DNA of 29,482 nucleotides from a virus, in IMG/VR virus record IMGVR_UViG_3300044998_000850, positions 1-29,482 of that record; one strand, given 5' to 3'. Below are positions 3,115 through 29,482 of this stretch, piece after piece. The notes under the pieces were generated by a model that saw only the letters and a list, made by a program, of their open reading frames with translations, was not told where the DNA came from and made no database searches. The position numbers and the translations under genes were made by a program. Position 1 is the first letter of the stretch. Every line of letters begins with the position of its first letter.

Positions 3115-3513
3115 CTATAATAGCTTCCCGTCCTTGAAAACTAAATGACGTTTATTATACTTGTTATCGTAAACAGAAATGGTCTGAAAGTACCCATTGT
3201 TGAAGAACTTAGAAAACCTTTGGATATCGGTCTCCAAAAGGGTCTTACTGTTTTTTATATCTTCAAGAGAGTAAAATTCTATCAATTCCTTTAGTTCTTC
3301 TTCCTCGACTTTGCTGAAGTTGTGAAGAACTGAAAACAAAATGAACTTTATCTTTTTTTCTTTTAAGAACAACTTGTTCCCTGAACCTTTTTTCTGAACG
3401 TACTCTCTAAACTTTAGAGTGCATTTGTAAAGGCTGCCTTCTACTTTTGCAGTCTCATCTTGATTGTAAGGAATGGCAATTACCTCTGCCACTTTTTTTA
3501 GTTTCACTTCCAT
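3115..3513 (-). CDS. Hypothetical protein, paralogue B of a tandem duplication
   Basis: This 132-residue protein of unknown function is a tandem paralogue of the one at 2505-2891. It differs by small insertions near residues 17-20 and 40-43 (KKGSGNK) and is more basic. The shared C-terminal block (TISVYDNKYNKRHLVF) is the best-conserved part and may form the functional core. Both copies keep intact reading frames despite substantial divergence, so both are probably under selection. Confidence 0.72.
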   Translation of the reverse strand: MEVKLKKVAEVIAIPYNQDETAKVEGSLYKCTLKFREYVQKKGSGNKLFLKEKKIKFILFSVLHNFSKVEEEELKELIEFYSLEDIKNSKTLLETDIQRFSKFFNNGYFQTISVYDNKYNKRHLVFKDGKLL

Positions 3514-18542: not shown

Positions 18543-21314
18543 CTATAAAGAATATCTCTTGTTTAAAAATTGCTCTGTTTGATTTCTTGAAGAAATATAA
18601 TGATTTATGCCGTTTTCGTCAATATTGATATAATGCGTGCTTTGATTTTCTAATGCAGAAGCTAATTTATCAACTTTGCTTAAAAGTGCTTTTATTTCGT
18701 TTTTAAGCATAGTTTCGCTTTGATTAGTGTTAAAGTCTTTTACGAACGAGTTAATCGCCTCAGGGGGCACTAAACCGTTGTGTATCGCCGATAAGGCAGG
18801 GAAATATGCCTTGTTCGTTTTGGCTGACACAACCCTTTCGCCGACTGAAAGCCTCGCAAGAATAGAGTCGCTTGTTTCTGTGCCAGCACCTTTCAGCATT
18901 TCAACCCCTTCTTTGAATTTTGGGATAGGTCGTGAAGCAACTAATGCAGCTTGAATTGCCCCTTGTGCAATTGCAAACGCAGAAAAAGGCAAACCGAAGG
19001 TTTGCGGGCTTATAGCAAGAGATTTTGCAACTGCTAATGCTGTGTTGATAGCAATATCAAACAGAGCTTTGTTTTTTTCTGCCCTTGCTTGTCCTTCTTT
19101 TATCTTTTTTTCTTCATTTGCAAATTTAGTCATAATAAACTGCTTGTTTTGCTCGTTATTGCCTGCCAGACGCAATTCTTCTTCTTGCTGAGCTCTTAAA
19201 TTTTGCAGTTTTGCTTCGCTGTTTATCTTATCAAACTCAAATGCAGCTTGCCCAAGCGACTGCCCAAAATCAAACGCTGCTTCTATCACTCGCTTCTCCC
19301 ATTCTTTGCCCTCTGCTATTATTCGTTGCTTTTCTTCTTCAGCACGCTTTGTCGCTTCAACTTCTTTTTCTATTGCATCTAATTTCGCTTTATTCGCTTC
19401 ATCTAAAGCCTTTTTTTGCTCTTCTAACGATTTCTTGAAAATTTCTTGTTTTTGCTTTTCTTTATCTGAAAAAATTTTCCTGCTTTCTTCTTCGGTTTGT
19501 CTTTCAATAAGCAAAATTTCATTGTTTGTTAGCTTTTTAGTTTTTATTGCGTTGTTTTTATCTATTTCGTATTTTATTTTTGCTTGCTTGTTTTTTTCTT
19601 CTATTACAGCAAGCTCCGCACGTGCAAGACTTTCTTGCAAGCTAATTCTCTCAGCAACGCTTAAATTTTCTGCTTGTAAAGCCTCTTTGTACCTTGCGAC
19701 ACGAAATTCTGCTTCTTGCAACGCTAATGCTTGCTCTGCTTGCAGTTCTCTAAGCCTAAATTCTGCTGCTTGTCTTGCTTTTTCTTCTAAAAGACGTTTT
19801 TGTTCTTCTAATGCTCTTTTTCTTGCTTCTTCTGCTAATCTTGCATCTCTTTTGCGTTCTTCATCTGCTTCTTTCTCTTTGTCTTGTCCATATTTGCGAG
19901 AAGCTGCAAATACTTCTTCTTCTTCTTTTTTAATAAAATTTAATCTATCTCTTTCAAGTTTTAATGTTTTTGTAGAAACCCCAAATTTGTCCAGAGCCTC
20001 ATTATTTAACGCTTTTTGATATTCTAATTGCTCTTGTTGTAGTTCTGAAATTCTTTCATTTATCGAATTTAACCTATAAGAAATTTCTAATTTTTCTTTA
20101 ATTTCTTGAAGCTCTTGCCCACTCACTCCCGCATCTCTGAAAGATTGAAGTGATTTTTGAACGTTTACGATTGCTTCTGCTTGCTTTGCGTACAATTCGT
20201 TAAGTTCTTCTGCAAGTTTTTTATCACCTTGCTCAGCAAGCCCCAAAATCCTTTTTTTCTCAAAAACTATGTTTACATTTTTTAGCGTTTTTTCCAAATC
20301 TTCATAACTCGATTTCTCAAGATTGATGTTACCTATGTATTCTCCATACTTTGATTGTAATTCATTTATAATGCGAGTCCTCGCTTCACCTTGCACGTTT
20401 GTATCTTGCAAAGCCTTCACAAGACCTGTAAACTCCGATTTTTCACTTTCAATTTTTTCTTCAAATGGAATTTCTATCAAGTCTTTGATAGTATTTAGAA
20501 AAGAAGACGCAACCCCTAAAACGCCTGAAAACGCATCTTTAAGCCGCTCGCCGACCGCTAATTTCAGTTGGTCGAACGTATCACCTAAATTTGATAGTTG
20601 TCCTTCTAAAGTTTTAGAAATAGCCTCCATACCCCCGCTAACGCCCTTCAAATCCCCCAAACTTAAAATATACGCTCTTACAGCATCGTTTGTCTTTGCT
20701 ACTTCTGTAGTAACACCTTTAAAGCTGAACGCAATTTTATCGCCGTTCTGGCTTGCTTTTATGCCAAATTCTTTTAGACGCTCAAATTCAAAGCTCTGTG
20801 CATCTAAAATTGCTTCTGTAAGTTGGTCAAATTTTTTACCCGTCGCACTTGCAAGATCGCCGAGTTTTCGCATCTCTTCGGTAGTGGGTTTAAAGCCCGC
20901 ATTTGCAAGTTTTACAAAACTTTCTGTTAGTTCTTCAACCGAGAACGGCGTAGATGAAGCAAAATCGTTTATTTGCTTCATTGCCTTTTGTGCTTCCGAC
21001 CTGCTCCCAAGCGTATTTGTCAAAACAGCCTCAAACTTTTGAAATGTCGCAGTAGTTTTGAATACTTCTTGTGTAAAATCTTTGATTTTATCTACCGCAA
21101 AAAGCCCTGCAAGAGCCACACCCGCCATTTTTGCAATACCTGAAAGTTTCGATATATGACCTTGAGTAGATTGCAAACCTTGATTGGCACTCTTATTCGC
21201 TTCCTCAAACGCTTTTTTGCGTTTTTTTTCTGCTTCTGTAATGCTATCTAAGCCCTGCCGAGCCTCCTGGTCGCCTCTTATTTTTACTTCAATATCGTAT
21301 ATCTTATTTGCCAT
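18543..21314 (-). CDS. Tail tape measure protein
   Basis: At 923 residues this is the largest protein and sets tail length. The first part has typical tape-measure sequence (GLDSITEAEKKRKKAFEEANK, FQKFEAVLTNTLGS, FSVEELTESFVKLANAGFKPT) with a membrane-like stretch near residue 65. Residues about 470-700 form an exceptionally charged coiled coil rich in A, E, K and R. Hydrophobic segments near 770-815 (FDIAINTALAVAKSLAIS and following) and a late conserved-looking ISVGERVVSA-type region follow. By the rough rule of 1.5 angstrom per residue it implies a tail of about 140 nm. Its ATG overlaps the end of the chaperone -1 frame by 11 bases. Confidence 0.93.
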   Translation of the reverse strand: MANKIYDIEVKIRGDQEARQGLDSITEAEKKRKKAFEEANKSANQGLQSTQGHISKLSGIAKMAGVALAGLFAVDKIKDFTQEVFKTTATFQKFEAVLTNTLGSRSEAQKAMKQINDFASSTPFSVEELTESFVKLANAGFKPTTEEMRKLGDLASATGKKFDQLTEAILDAQSFEFERLKEFGIKASQNGDKIAFSFKGVTTEVAKTNDAVRAYILSLGDLKGVSGGMEAISKTLEGQLSNLGDTFDQLKLAVGERLKDAFSGVLGVASSFLNTIKDLIEIPFEEKIESEKSEFTGLVKALQDTNVQGEARTRIINELQSKYGEYIGNINLEKSSYEDLEKTLKNVNIVFEKKRILGLAEQGDKKLAEELNELYAKQAEAIVNVQKSLQSFRDAGVSGQELQEIKEKLEISYRLNSINERISELQQEQLEYQKALNNEALDKFGVSTKTLKLERDRLNFIKKEEEEVFAASRKYGQDKEKEADEERKRDARLAEEARKRALEEQKRLLEEKARQAAEFRLRELQAEQALALQEAEFRVARYKEALQAENLSVAERISLQESLARAELAVIEEKNKQAKIKYEIDKNNAIKTKKLTNNEILLIERQTEEESRKIFSDKEKQKQEIFKKSLEEQKKALDEANKAKLDAIEKEVEATKRAEEEKQRIIAEGKEWEKRVIEAAFDFGQSLGQAAFEFDKINSEAKLQNLRAQQEEELRLAGNNEQNKQFIMTKFANEEKKIKEGQARAEKNKALFDIAINTALAVAKSLAISPQTFGLPFSAFAIAQGAIQAALVASRPIPKFKEGVEMLKGAGTETSDSILARLSVGERVVSAKTNKAYFPALSAIHNGLVPPEAINSFVKDFNTNQSETMLKNEIKALLSKVDKLASALENQSTHYINIDENGINHYISSRNQTEQFLNKRYSL

Positions 21315-25391: not shown

Positions 25392-25745
25392 ATGAAACTT
25401 GTAAGGCAAATCACAGAAACAATAGCCGTCTTGGTTGAAAATGATATATTGAATAACTTTGATGAAGAAGCGTTCAACAATCAGTCTTGGAAACCTCGCA
25501 AACGCAAGGACAGGCAACAGGGACGGCGTGCTTTACTTGTAAAAACAGGGCAGATGAAGCGTGGAATTAGTGTAAGAGCGGAAGGGAAACTAATTTCTGT
25601 GTATTCAGATATGAATTATGCAATATATCACAATGAAGGCACAGATAAAATCCCGCAAAGGCAGTTTGTTGGCTTTACAGATGAATTAGAAAAGCAAATA
25701 GACAAAGAAGTAGATGCTATTTTAGAAAAATTTTTCTCTGAATAG
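25392..25745 (+). CDS. Virion morphogenesis / tail completion protein, Mu gpG-like
   Basis: This 117-residue protein carries the signature of the phage virion morphogenesis family: ALLVKTGQMKRGI (about residues 47-59), a YAIYHNEGTDKIPQRQF block (about 77-93), and a charged C-terminal helix. In Mu-like and many siphophages it is a head-tail or tail completion protein. Here it is read on the plus strand, opposite all other structural genes, from its own promoter. Confidence 0.82.
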   Translation: MKLVRQITETIAVLVENDILNNFDEEAFNNQSWKPRKRKDRQQGRRALLVKTGQMKRGISVRAEGKLISVYSDMNYAIYHNEGTDKIPQRQFVGFTDELEKQIDKEVDAILEKFFSE

Positions 25746-26276: not shown

Positions 26277-27098
26277 TTATTTATTAAGAATTTCGTTGAT
26301 TTTTGATTTTTCTTCATCTGAAACGTTAAAATAAGGGTGTTTTTCAGGGAAAACAACGCCTTTTTTTGCAGTATTTGCCCAAAACATTGACGGCATATCA
26401 TTTTTAACTTTATTCATTTCTTCGCTGCTTACTTCTTTGCCCGATGTGCCTTTTTTTACTCTTTTGACCGTACAACGACAATTCCAGCCGTTTGGAGGGT
26501 AAAAAGTGTCCCAGAAAGCTGAGTCGACAGGTTCTACGATGCCGTTTAGTTTACTGTGGTCGGCTCTTGTTCTGTCATCTTTTACAGCTACGTATTGCAA
26601 ATCAAACAAATCTTTTGTTTCATCAAAAATTTGCCATTTTTTAGCCATCTGCGAACTTGCGACAGCGTGGTTATATTCAGCTTTTAGATAGTTTAGATTG
26701 TAATTGTTGTTAAGATAAATGACATCTTTTTGAAATGTATCAAAAGACTTTAAAGCACCGTTCTTATCCACAAGCAAATTTGTAACTTCTTTTAGTTCTC
26801 TGTAAGACTTAAAACCTGAAAAATATTGAATATCTGACAGAAGTTTATCTACGAGCTCTTTTTCACTGCTTGAAATAACATTGTCAAAAACCTCTCTGAC
26901 AGCTTTTGAAATCTCTTTCTTTGTTAAATTCGTCAAACTTCTTATTACTTGTTCAAAAGAAAATATGTCTATTTTTTCTTTTTTCTTGAAAAACTCATAA
27001 GCCTCGTATGCGAATTTTTGAAGTAGGGCAAGAAAATCATCTAAGATGTTGAGCTTAACAAATTGCCCTTCATTTGTTAAGCTCTGGCGAAAGGGTAG
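26277..27098 (-). CDS. MuF-like minor head protein, apparently reached by -1 frameshift from the portal gene
   Basis: The MuF domain is clear: YNHAVASSQMAKKW, then VKDDRTRADHSKLNG, VDSAFWDTFYPPNGWNCRC, the standard D.RTR..H..l.G...PPNGW.CRC signature. MuF proteins are minor head proteins near the portal. The frame is open from 27098, just after a TAG, with no ATG; the only near-usual start is a TTG at 26936, which would drop 54 protein-like codons (LDDFLALLQKFAYEAYEFF). The opening coincides with the slippery C_CCU_UUC at the end of the portal gene, so the main product may be a portal-MuF fusion of about 657 residues. A separate MuF from the TTG remains possible. Confidence 0.85.
   Translation of the reverse strand, partial: LPFRQSLTNEGQFVKLNILDDFLALLQKFAYEAYEFFKKKEKIDIFSFEQVIRSLTNLTKKEISKAVREVFDNVISSSEKELVDKLLSDIQYFSGFKSYRELKEVTNLLVDKNGALKSFDTFQKDVIYLNNNYNLNYLKAEYNHAVASSQMAKKWQIFDETKDLFDLQYVAVKDDRTRADHSKLNGIVEPVDSAFWDTFYPPNGWNCRCTVKRVKKGTSGKEVSSEEMNKVKNDMPSMFWANTAKKGVVFPEKHPYFNVSDEEKSKINEILNK
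27051..27095 (-). promoter_or_regulatory. Candidate -1 frameshift signal at the portal/MuF junction
   Basis: Read on the minus strand: slippery C_CCU_UUC (27095-27089, in the portal frame), a 4-base spacer GCCA, then a stem-loop with perfect 13-bp arms (GAGCTTAACAAAT at 27084-27072 and ATTTGTTAAGCTC at 27063-27051) and the 8-base loop GAAGGGCA. The portal stop TAA (27079-27077) lies in the stem. AAGGG of the loop is complementary to CCCTT of the slippery site, so a pseudoknot is also conceivable. No T-run follows, so it is not a terminator. Confidence 0.72.
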
Positions 27099-28249
27099 CT
27101 ATCATCGTCATCACAGCATTTTAAATTCAAATTATTTTCATTTGCGGTTGGTTGAGGCGTGGTTTCTTTCAAATTTCGGCGTTCGTGAAAAAACTCAAAT
27201 TCAAACTTAAATTCATCAATCCCTTTGTACGCCCGTCCTTGTTTTGCTAAGAATTTAAGCACCTTGCTATTTATTTCATATTCAATATACTTCATATCGG
27301 ACTCCACCCACCAATCCAATTTTCGTTCTTGCACTTCTGCCGAACCTACATAAGATTTTTGCTCCATTGTCGCTGTTTGCCCTACAAGCGACTTTGCTAC
27401 TTGCGTATCGTTAAAATCAATGAACATTTTAAACGTATCAATATTTGTGCTTGCTGTTGCGTTTAATGCTCCAATCTCGTCGCTATCATCAAAAACGCTA
27501 AATCCGTTCCTGCCAAAATTGTCCAATAATTCATAATACGCTTGCTTGTCTTTTGCACTTGTTTTTACGTACCTGTGAGGCATACCGAACTTTTCATTAT
27601 ACTTTGCCCAATCGGAAACCGTAAAATTTTTATACATTACACGCTTTGCAGGTCTTACAAGCAAACCTAAACTTTGATAATTGCCGTCAGCCTTGCCAAA
27701 TTCGAGCACTAAGCTGAATTTATCTAAACTTTCGCCTTCAAGCTCGCCGTACGGGTCTTTTAGATAAACTCTGCGACGTGGATTGATGTTTTGGCGAGGG
27801 ATTTTTGTAAACGTTGTAAATTCATTATTTGCAAAAAAATCTGCATAATCAAATTGTATTGTTGTATAACCCCAAGCCTTTGTTTCTACAATAGCGTAAA
27901 GCAAATCTAAAAACCAGCTTTTTTGAATAATTTGCGTTGCTTCTTCGTTCTTATTGCCGTTTTTATCATATAAAGCAAAATTCTCAGCAACCGAACCGCT
28001 GAACCTTGTTTCAAGTGAACTGAAAACAACGTCATCTAAAATGGCGTTGTCGTATAAGTCGTAAAGAGGCACAAAATTGTAGTAAGGAGGGGCAAAACAG
28101 CTTTCAATCGCATTTTTCCAATCCGATAGCCCCACATCTGTACGATAGATTTTCTGCATCGTCCAGACGTTATTCTCAAACATTTTCATTTGTTGCTCTG
28201 TTTGTTTGAGCTCTTTTCTACTGCCAAAAAGTCTTTGAAAAATATTCAT
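27077..28249 (-). CDS. Portal protein, Mu gp29-like (DUF935 type)
   Basis: This 390-residue protein forms the portal ring at the unique capsid vertex, through which DNA passes. A DUF935-like pattern is visible: WKNAIESCFAPPYYNFVPLYDLYD near residue 45, AWGYTTIQFDY near 125, and SDWAKYNEKFGMPHRYVKT near 210-228, followed by GFSVFDDSDEI. It lies between the gp36-like connector and MuF, the order of Mu and its relatives. The protein ends in an acidic tail (CCDDDDSYPFARA), where the slippery site allows fusion to MuF. It overlaps the connector stop by four bases. Confidence 0.85.
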   Translation of the reverse strand: MNIFQRLFGSRKELKQTEQQMKMFENNVWTMQKIYRTDVGLSDWKNAIESCFAPPYYNFVPLYDLYDNAILDDVVFSSLETRFSGSVAENFALYDKNGNKNEEATQIIQKSWFLDLLYAIVETKAWGYTTIQFDYADFFANNEFTTFTKIPRQNINPRRRVYLKDPYGELEGESLDKFSLVLEFGKADGNYQSLGLLVRPAKRVMYKNFTVSDWAKYNEKFGMPHRYVKTSAKDKQAYYELLDNFGRNGFSVFDDSDEIGALNATASTNIDTFKMFIDFNDTQVAKSLVGQTATMEQKSYVGSAEVQERKLDWWVESDMKYIEYEINSKVLKFLAKQGRAYKGIDEFKFEFEFFHERRNLKETTPQPTANENNLNLKCCDDDDSYPFARA

Positions 28250-28650: not shown

Positions 28651-29482
28651 TATCTTGATTTTTTAAATTGAAAATAATTACTTCCTGTATCAATATTTTT
28701 TTCATATCCGAACATAAGTGTCCTGTATTCTTCTTTGAAATACTCGCAAATAAAGTAGTCCATAGTGTCCGAAATATGCCCCCAGCGTTGAAAAGAACGC
28801 CCATTTTCAGTTACAATTTTCTTCATTTTACCACCCTCTCTGTCCTGCTTTACGTTTGCCATCTCGCTTACAACTTCCTGCAAATTTTTGTTTATTCGGA
28901 TTTTGACAGGGTCGTCGTTTAAGAAACATCTATTCATAAAAATTCCTCTCAGGCTCACAGGCGGATTAGCTTTTGGGACTCGCTTTTCAACAAAAAAATC
29001 TTTCAAGTCTGCTAAAATCAACGTGAAAAAGTTTTCAGACTTGTTTAATTTAGCATCGGTTTTTTGGCTTGTAGCATCGCCATAGATGAACATTTTTTCT
29101 TTATGTCCTGCGAACCGTACTTTTATTTGATTACAAGCATCTGAAACGGATTTTGCAGGTATAAAATCAATCAAATGTACTTCATTTTTATTATGAACTT
29201 GATAGCAAGTAACCGCAAGATAAGGCAGGACGTTCTCATCAAAACTTAAATGAAGCGGTTTTTCTATATCGTAATAAACATTTGAAAGATGCTTGTCAAA
29301 ATCAAAACAATCGTAAAATTCATCGCCTTCCTTTACTGAAACGTCCCAATTACCCTCCACAAATCGTTCATATTGACGGCGTGGCATAAGTTGCCAGCTC
29401 GCTTTGACTTCGGCAGGGATATAGGGATTATCTGCCGAGTTTGCGGGGTAATACAGCACATTTTCGGGCAATGTGTTCTCTT
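28650..29482 (-). CDS. terL: Terminase large subunit, C-terminal part (same gene as 1-671)
   Basis: This piece holds the end of the ATPase and the RNase H-like nuclease that cuts concatemeric DNA. Acidic residues expected for the metal site are the D of HLSFDEN (about residue 263 of the joined protein), the D of YGDAT (about 317) and the D residues in HISDTMD (about 420-423). YGDAT-type motifs are usual in terminases of Bacteroidota phages. The bases from 29356 on repeat the left end of the window. The TAA stop at 28652-28650 overlaps the ATG of the next gene, so packaging and connector genes are cotranscribed. Confidence 0.93.
   Translation of the reverse strand, partial: ENTLPENVLYYPANSADNPYIPAEVKASWQLMPRRQYERFVEGNWDVSVKEGDEFYDCFDFDKHLSNVYYDIEKPLHLSFDENVLPYLAVTCYQVHNKNEVHLIDFIPAKSVSDACNQIKVRFAGHKEKMFIYGDATSQKTDAKLNKSENFFTLILADLKDFFVEKRVPKANPPVSLRGIFMNRCFLNDDPVKIRINKNLQEVVSEMANVKQDREGGKMKKIVTENGRSFQRWGHISDTMDYFICEYFKEEYRTLMFGYEKNIDTGSNYFQFKKSR
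29356..29482. repeat. Right copy of terminal 127-bp direct repeat (circular join)
   Basis: This is an exact copy of bases 1-127. With one copy removed the circle is 29,355 bp. Features that touch either end, here only the terminase large subunit, should be read across the join. Confidence 0.95.

Follow-up and report, generated by a model that had tools for sequence, protein, structure and literature searches.

In lambda and many other dsDNA phages, the tail chaperones gpG and gpGT arise from a -1 slip near the end of a morphogenesis gene, which gives a major short protein and a minor extended one and is conserved over long distances. Recoding also extends the C terminus of a virion protein in the case of the major head proteins of Lactobacillus phage A2, T3/T7 (gp10), and Listeria phage PSA. 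In dnaX, the 0 frame encodes the long product (tau), and a -1 slip with a stem leads to an early stop and a short product (gamma). Portal and MuF proteins are partners in SPP1 (gp6/gp7) and Mu (gp29/gp30), where they are encoded by separate genes with their own starts; SPP1 gp7 is a studied MuF protein that binds the portal and is present at 1 to 2 copies per capsid (PMC5576092). The two proteins are joined in a single gene in Microbacterium cluster EA/EB phages (PMC7302621) and in Porphyromonas gingivalis phages, where they are reported or annotated as plain fusions.

Here, we analyze a portal/MuF junction in a viral DNA of 29,482 nucleotides (IMG/VR record IMGVR_UViG_3300044998_000850; this whole stretch is called the window) at which the two proteins appear to be joined by recoding. 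Unlike gpG/gpGT, portal and MuF are head proteins, and the pair does not occupy the lambda-type tail assembly chaperone position between the major tail protein and the tape measure; it adjoins the terminase and head-tail adaptor genes, and the tape measure lies at 18543-21314. The recoded major head proteins are capsid rather than portal proteins, and their extensions, unlike MuF, do not constitute a known morphogenesis domain in its own right. In contrast to dnaX, portal-MuF is a viral structural gene, and the direction in which its site is used seems to be reversed between close relatives. We found no earlier report of portal-MuF recoding in a literature search that covered mainly open-access papers, portals go unmentioned in the accessible portions of a recoding review and a survey (PMC5009743, PMC3711429), and hankyphage p00 and Peternella carry portal and MuF as two genes in their public records. 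As far as can be told, the class of mechanism is known, while the gene pair, the breadth, and the frame-swapped use are new. Portal-MuF would thus be added to the few phage structural genes for which recoding is known.

Anatomy of the portal/MuF junction

The portal is of the Mu type (profile match to Portal_Mu PF06074, E 1e-46, 160 bits versus a cut-off of 23.9), and the frame that follows it matches Phage_Mu_F (PF04233, E 6e-15, 56.5 bits versus a cut-off of 29.6). When solved structures were compared, the portal gave weak matches only and MuF no credible one. The 3′ end of the portal gene reads TAC CCT TTC GCC AGA GCT TAA. The original prediction described an exact in-phase X_XXY_YYZ heptamer at this end, a perfect 13-bp stem with an 8-base loop that starts 4 nt later and contains the portal stop, and a -1 frame that opens at the heptamer and runs into a MuF domain without an ATG near the junction; the coordinates bear out each of these points (Table 1). 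The earliest ATG, GTG, or TTG codon of the MuF frame is a TTG, and its earliest ATG lies 431 nt past the portal stop.

Table 1. Coordinates of the portal/MuF junction features in the window
Feature	Position	Strand	Remarks
Portal gene, 0 frame, 390 aa	27077..28249	-	Portal_Mu domain about 27191-28063
Putative slippery heptamer CCCTTTC	27089..27095	-	Phase C_CCT_TTC; -1 frame CCC TTT
Spacer GCCA, 4 nt	27085..27088	-	
Presumed stimulatory stem-loop	27051..27084	-	13 perfect pairs, 8-nt loop
5′ arm of stem, GAGCTTAACAAAT	27072-27084	-	
3′ arm of stem, ATTTGTTAAGCTC	27051-27063	-	
Hairpin loop, GAAGGGCA	27064-27071	-	
Portal stop codon TAA	27077..27079	-	Within 5′ arm of stem
Last -1 frame stop (TAG) 5′ of heptamer	27099..27101	-	One codon (CTA) between stop and heptamer
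MuF frame, -1 relative to portal, 272 aa counted from heptamer	26277..27098	-	PF04233 about 26466-26702
TTG, sole candidate internal start ahead of conserved region	26934..26936	-	Preceded by 53 -1 frame codons from heptamer

We are highly confident that the best explanation of this arrangement is a portal-MuF fusion produced by a -1 slip at C_CCT_TTC together with an unfused portal. The junction observation is real, and -1 recoding there is very likely. Some ribosomes translating the portal would step back one base at the heptamer, with tRNA-Pro re-pairing from CCU to CCC and tRNA-Phe from UUC to UUU, assisted by the downstream stem-loop. In the -1 frame these ribosomes would bypass the portal stop and make a predicted portal-MuF protein of 657 aa, and the remaining ribosomes would make the 390-aa portal. 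Rings would then be mixtures of portal and portal-MuF, which would tether a defined number of MuF copies to the portal vertex; if SPP1 gp7 is a guide, these probably lie on the ring's DNA side. If about one ribosome in ten slipped, each 12-mer would contain one or two tailed subunits. Slippage itself, its ribosomal nature, and the mixed rings are our inference; what is seen directly is the anatomy, its conservation in more than 170 divergent relatives together with compensatory stem changes among relatives, coding selection ahead of the candidate start, and single-ORF fusions bearing the site.

Such a junction would provide a built-in means to fix the copy number of MuF at the portal vertex, and it opens to experiment the question of how one or two copies of an internal protein come to be associated with a ring of 12-fold symmetry. 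In Bacteroidales, toxin domains are also found at the C terminus of MuF domains (PMC11699363); should the slip site be shared by these toxin-bearing MuF genes, their toxins would be produced and transported as portal fusions.

Junctions and start codons in related phages

The search for relatives used MuF motifs that are conserved (types PPNGWNCRC and FSGFK) rather than the heptamer, so the sample is not biased toward the feature. In 203 of 229 distinct junctions, MuF lies in the -1 frame and overlaps the end of the portal, and an in-phase X_XXY_YYZ heptamer is present, which is T_TTT_TTC in 187 of the 203. Clustering to <80% identity left 174 divergent junctions; T_TTT_TTC falls within the last 60 portal codons in 160 of these, against 8.9 expected when synonymous codons are redrawn from each gene's own usage, and it occurs in slip phase elsewhere in the same portal ORFs just once in 199,890 nt. 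Its position is mostly one codon before the portal stop (117/174) or, in the hankyphage type, 40 to 58 nt before it. The frame relation is present in more than 170 divergent genomes, isolate records among them. In two loci, L041 and L090, the frames overlap at -1 but no canonical heptamer is present; the latter has C_CTT_TTT and still a GCCCGA/TCGGGC stem.

The conserved group includes gut Bacteroidales prophages and hankyphages, and the feature is confined to Bacteroidota phages in a sample that was itself seeded from Bacteroidota phages. Within that group, recoding would account for MuF genes without starts and for misleading two-gene annotations. Flavobacterium phages (e.g., L008 and L011) have a separate MuF and no heptamer, as does a small clade (L123, L128, L135, and L141) with an ATG at the portal stop. 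MuF is also annotated separately, slightly overlapping or abutting the portal and with its own start, in Mu, Pseudomonas JBD26, Mushu, and a Vibrio phage. Fusion to the portal is therefore no general requirement for MuF function.

An alternative is that the window encodes MuF separately, with translation beginning at TTG 26936 or at some other weak start by coupling to portal termination. The TTG is in frame, and some relatives, among them hankyphages (L015), have an ATG overlapping the portal stop that is annotated as the MuF start. We nevertheless consider this reading quite improbable, because the codons ahead of the TTG evolve as MuF-frame protein. Between the window and its nearest relative, L002 (a separate contig, 97% identical), four of five changed codons from the heptamer to the TTG are synonymous in the MuF frame, versus five of six and six of six non-synonymous in the other two frames; selection therefore seems to act on the protein encoded in the MuF frame before the TTG, although this pair offers few changes to count, and the earlier impression that these codons read like protein is supported. 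Across 24 independent pairs of relatives, substitutions between the portal stop and the first ATG number 48, 31, and 152 at MuF-frame codon positions 1, 2, and 3. Moreover, starts are not conserved (an ATG lies near the portal stop in only 15 of 174 divergent junctions), whereas the heptamer and stem are, and MuF is in the -1 frame in nearly all non-fused members. In L015 and other hankyphage-like loci, where a MuF-frame ATG or GTG overlaps the portal stop, a free MuF might accompany the fusion.

Single-ORF fusions

The first junction set included 10 fused single-ORF junctions. These are interspersed among frameshift lineages on the portal tree, a quick tree on which about 10 changes serve the 10 fused rows, and three of them retain T_TTT_TTC and a stem at the boundary. 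A wider search enlarged the fused set to 42. In-phase T_TTT_TTC is found in 27 of these ORFs, a GC-rich stem then follows in nearly all, and the -1 frame hits a stop after about 18 to 32 codons. Among 32 divergent fused junctions, T_TTT_TTC occurs in 18, against 2.6 expected under synonymous redraw. The P. gingivalis-type fused genes also still have the heptamer and stem.

The simplest reading is that in fused genes the 0 frame would give the fusion and a slip would give a MuF-less portal, as in dnaX. Because slippage in these genes would yield a bare portal, both portal and portal-MuF are predicted in most lineages, and the pair of products would be what is conserved. Fused relatives that keep the site suggest selection on the ratio of the two forms and not just on the fusion. 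We would put at even odds the wider proposal that a recoding switch operates throughout this group of Bacteroidota phages, supplying bare and MuF-tailed portals in a set ratio per ring whichever is the 0-frame product, with lineages swapping repeatedly. That a few subunits in each ring would carry MuF, as the original prediction has it, presupposes infrequent shifting; fused lineages that seem to make a MuF-less form at the same site suggest that the rate could be substantial. Repeated swaps between slips that make the fusion and slips that make the bare portal would be easier with a higher slip rate, and easiest with slippage near one half.

Several of the other boundaries in the fused set, outside the 27 with T_TTT_TTC, carry homopolymers, A10 in seven loci (L010, L143, L156, L363, L365, L370, and L371) and T10 in one (L243), and shorter A runs lie at the boundary in overlapping L005 and L131. 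The A10 and A-run loci are candidates for transcriptional rather than ribosomal slippage. As an account of the second product in general, transcriptional slippage draws on these A10/T10 tracts, at which a polymerase could slip, but it is very improbable: in the window's CCCTTTC the longest run is three bases, and in most relatives the run reaches only T6 and sits in a phased heptamer followed, after a spacer of fixed length, by a conserved stem. Transcriptional slippage is likely for the A10/T10 subset only.

Two further cases vary in run length or frame. L243, a single ORF with T10, is the sister of L246, which has T7, MuF in the +1/-2 frame, and a CCCCGA/TCGGGG stem; the difference may reflect either T-tract slippage or an indel. 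L099 (1-340) is the nearest MuF relative after L002 (50% identical). Here portal and MuF are read in a single frame, the boundary has a T7 run, and a GCCCTACTA/TAGTAGGGC stem is present; the locus represents either a fused variant of the junction site or a homopolymer length error.

The stem-loop and the nearest relative

The AT-rich window genome has many in-phase X_XXY_YYZ motifs (89 in 5641 codons). Because the heptamer taken by itself thus says little, we place weight on the hairpin, the homologues, and covariation. The junction hairpin is the sole perfect hairpin of at least 13 bp in the window (loop 3 to 12; 29.5 kb scanned), has a folding z of -4.7, and was equaled in stability by 0 of 200 shuffles. 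C_CCT_TTC occurs among the junctions only in the window and L002, and support for this exact heptamer is homology of position rather than many sequences; our search found no demonstration of C_CCU_UUC slippage in a Bacteroidota host. The window's 4-nt spacer compares with about 6 nt in relatives, where a GC-rich stem 3′ of the heptamer shows strong compensatory change.

We measured covariation in 60 junctions of a single geometry (TTTTTTC GACTGA GCCCC...GGGGC). Stem cells were paired in 98.4% of cases, a percentage inflated by choosing junctions for this geometry (at least 6 of 8 pairs), and sliding the partner arm cut pairing to 29 to 56%. Double-change stem cells numbered 45, versus 11.9 in shuffles, and the choice by geometry does not by itself create the U-A/A-U/G-C exchange at the inner pair. 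Across the 174 divergent junctions, the 60 nt 3′ of the site have a mean folding z of -2.05; control windows placed 5′ of it or further 3′ give -0.07 to -0.37. The check set by the original prediction, that relatives should keep the heptamer, a stem with compensatory changes, and the frame relation, was thus passed by a wide margin.

Given how common the motif is in the window, the heptamer could in principle have arisen by chance beside a hairpin that serves as a terminator, a recombination site, or something else. This is highly implausible: no U-tract follows the stem, relatives keep the spacing and phase of stem and heptamer fixed, and the stem covaries while coding. That the true gene is one ORF, broken here by an assembly or sequencing indel or by decay, is scarcely credible even though genuine single-ORF fusions exist, because the separate contig L002 retains the heptamer, stem, and frame relation yet has its own substitutions (one stem pair is changed from U-A to U-G), and the divergent genomes share that frame relation.

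The loop GAAGGGCA could base-pair with most of the heptamer CCCTTTC in a pseudoknot-like manner, and the complementarity is retained in L002. The window carries a 127-bp direct terminal repeat (1-127 and 29356-29482), from which the contig is probably complete, circularly closed or permuted. A tail-completion/Neck1 gene (phrog_26; 25392-25745, plus strand) lies on the strand opposite to the terminase, portal, MuF, capsid, and tail genes, and two neighboring paralogous ORFs (MEVKLKKVA...) without assigned function occupy 2505-2891 and 3115-3513 on the minus strand.
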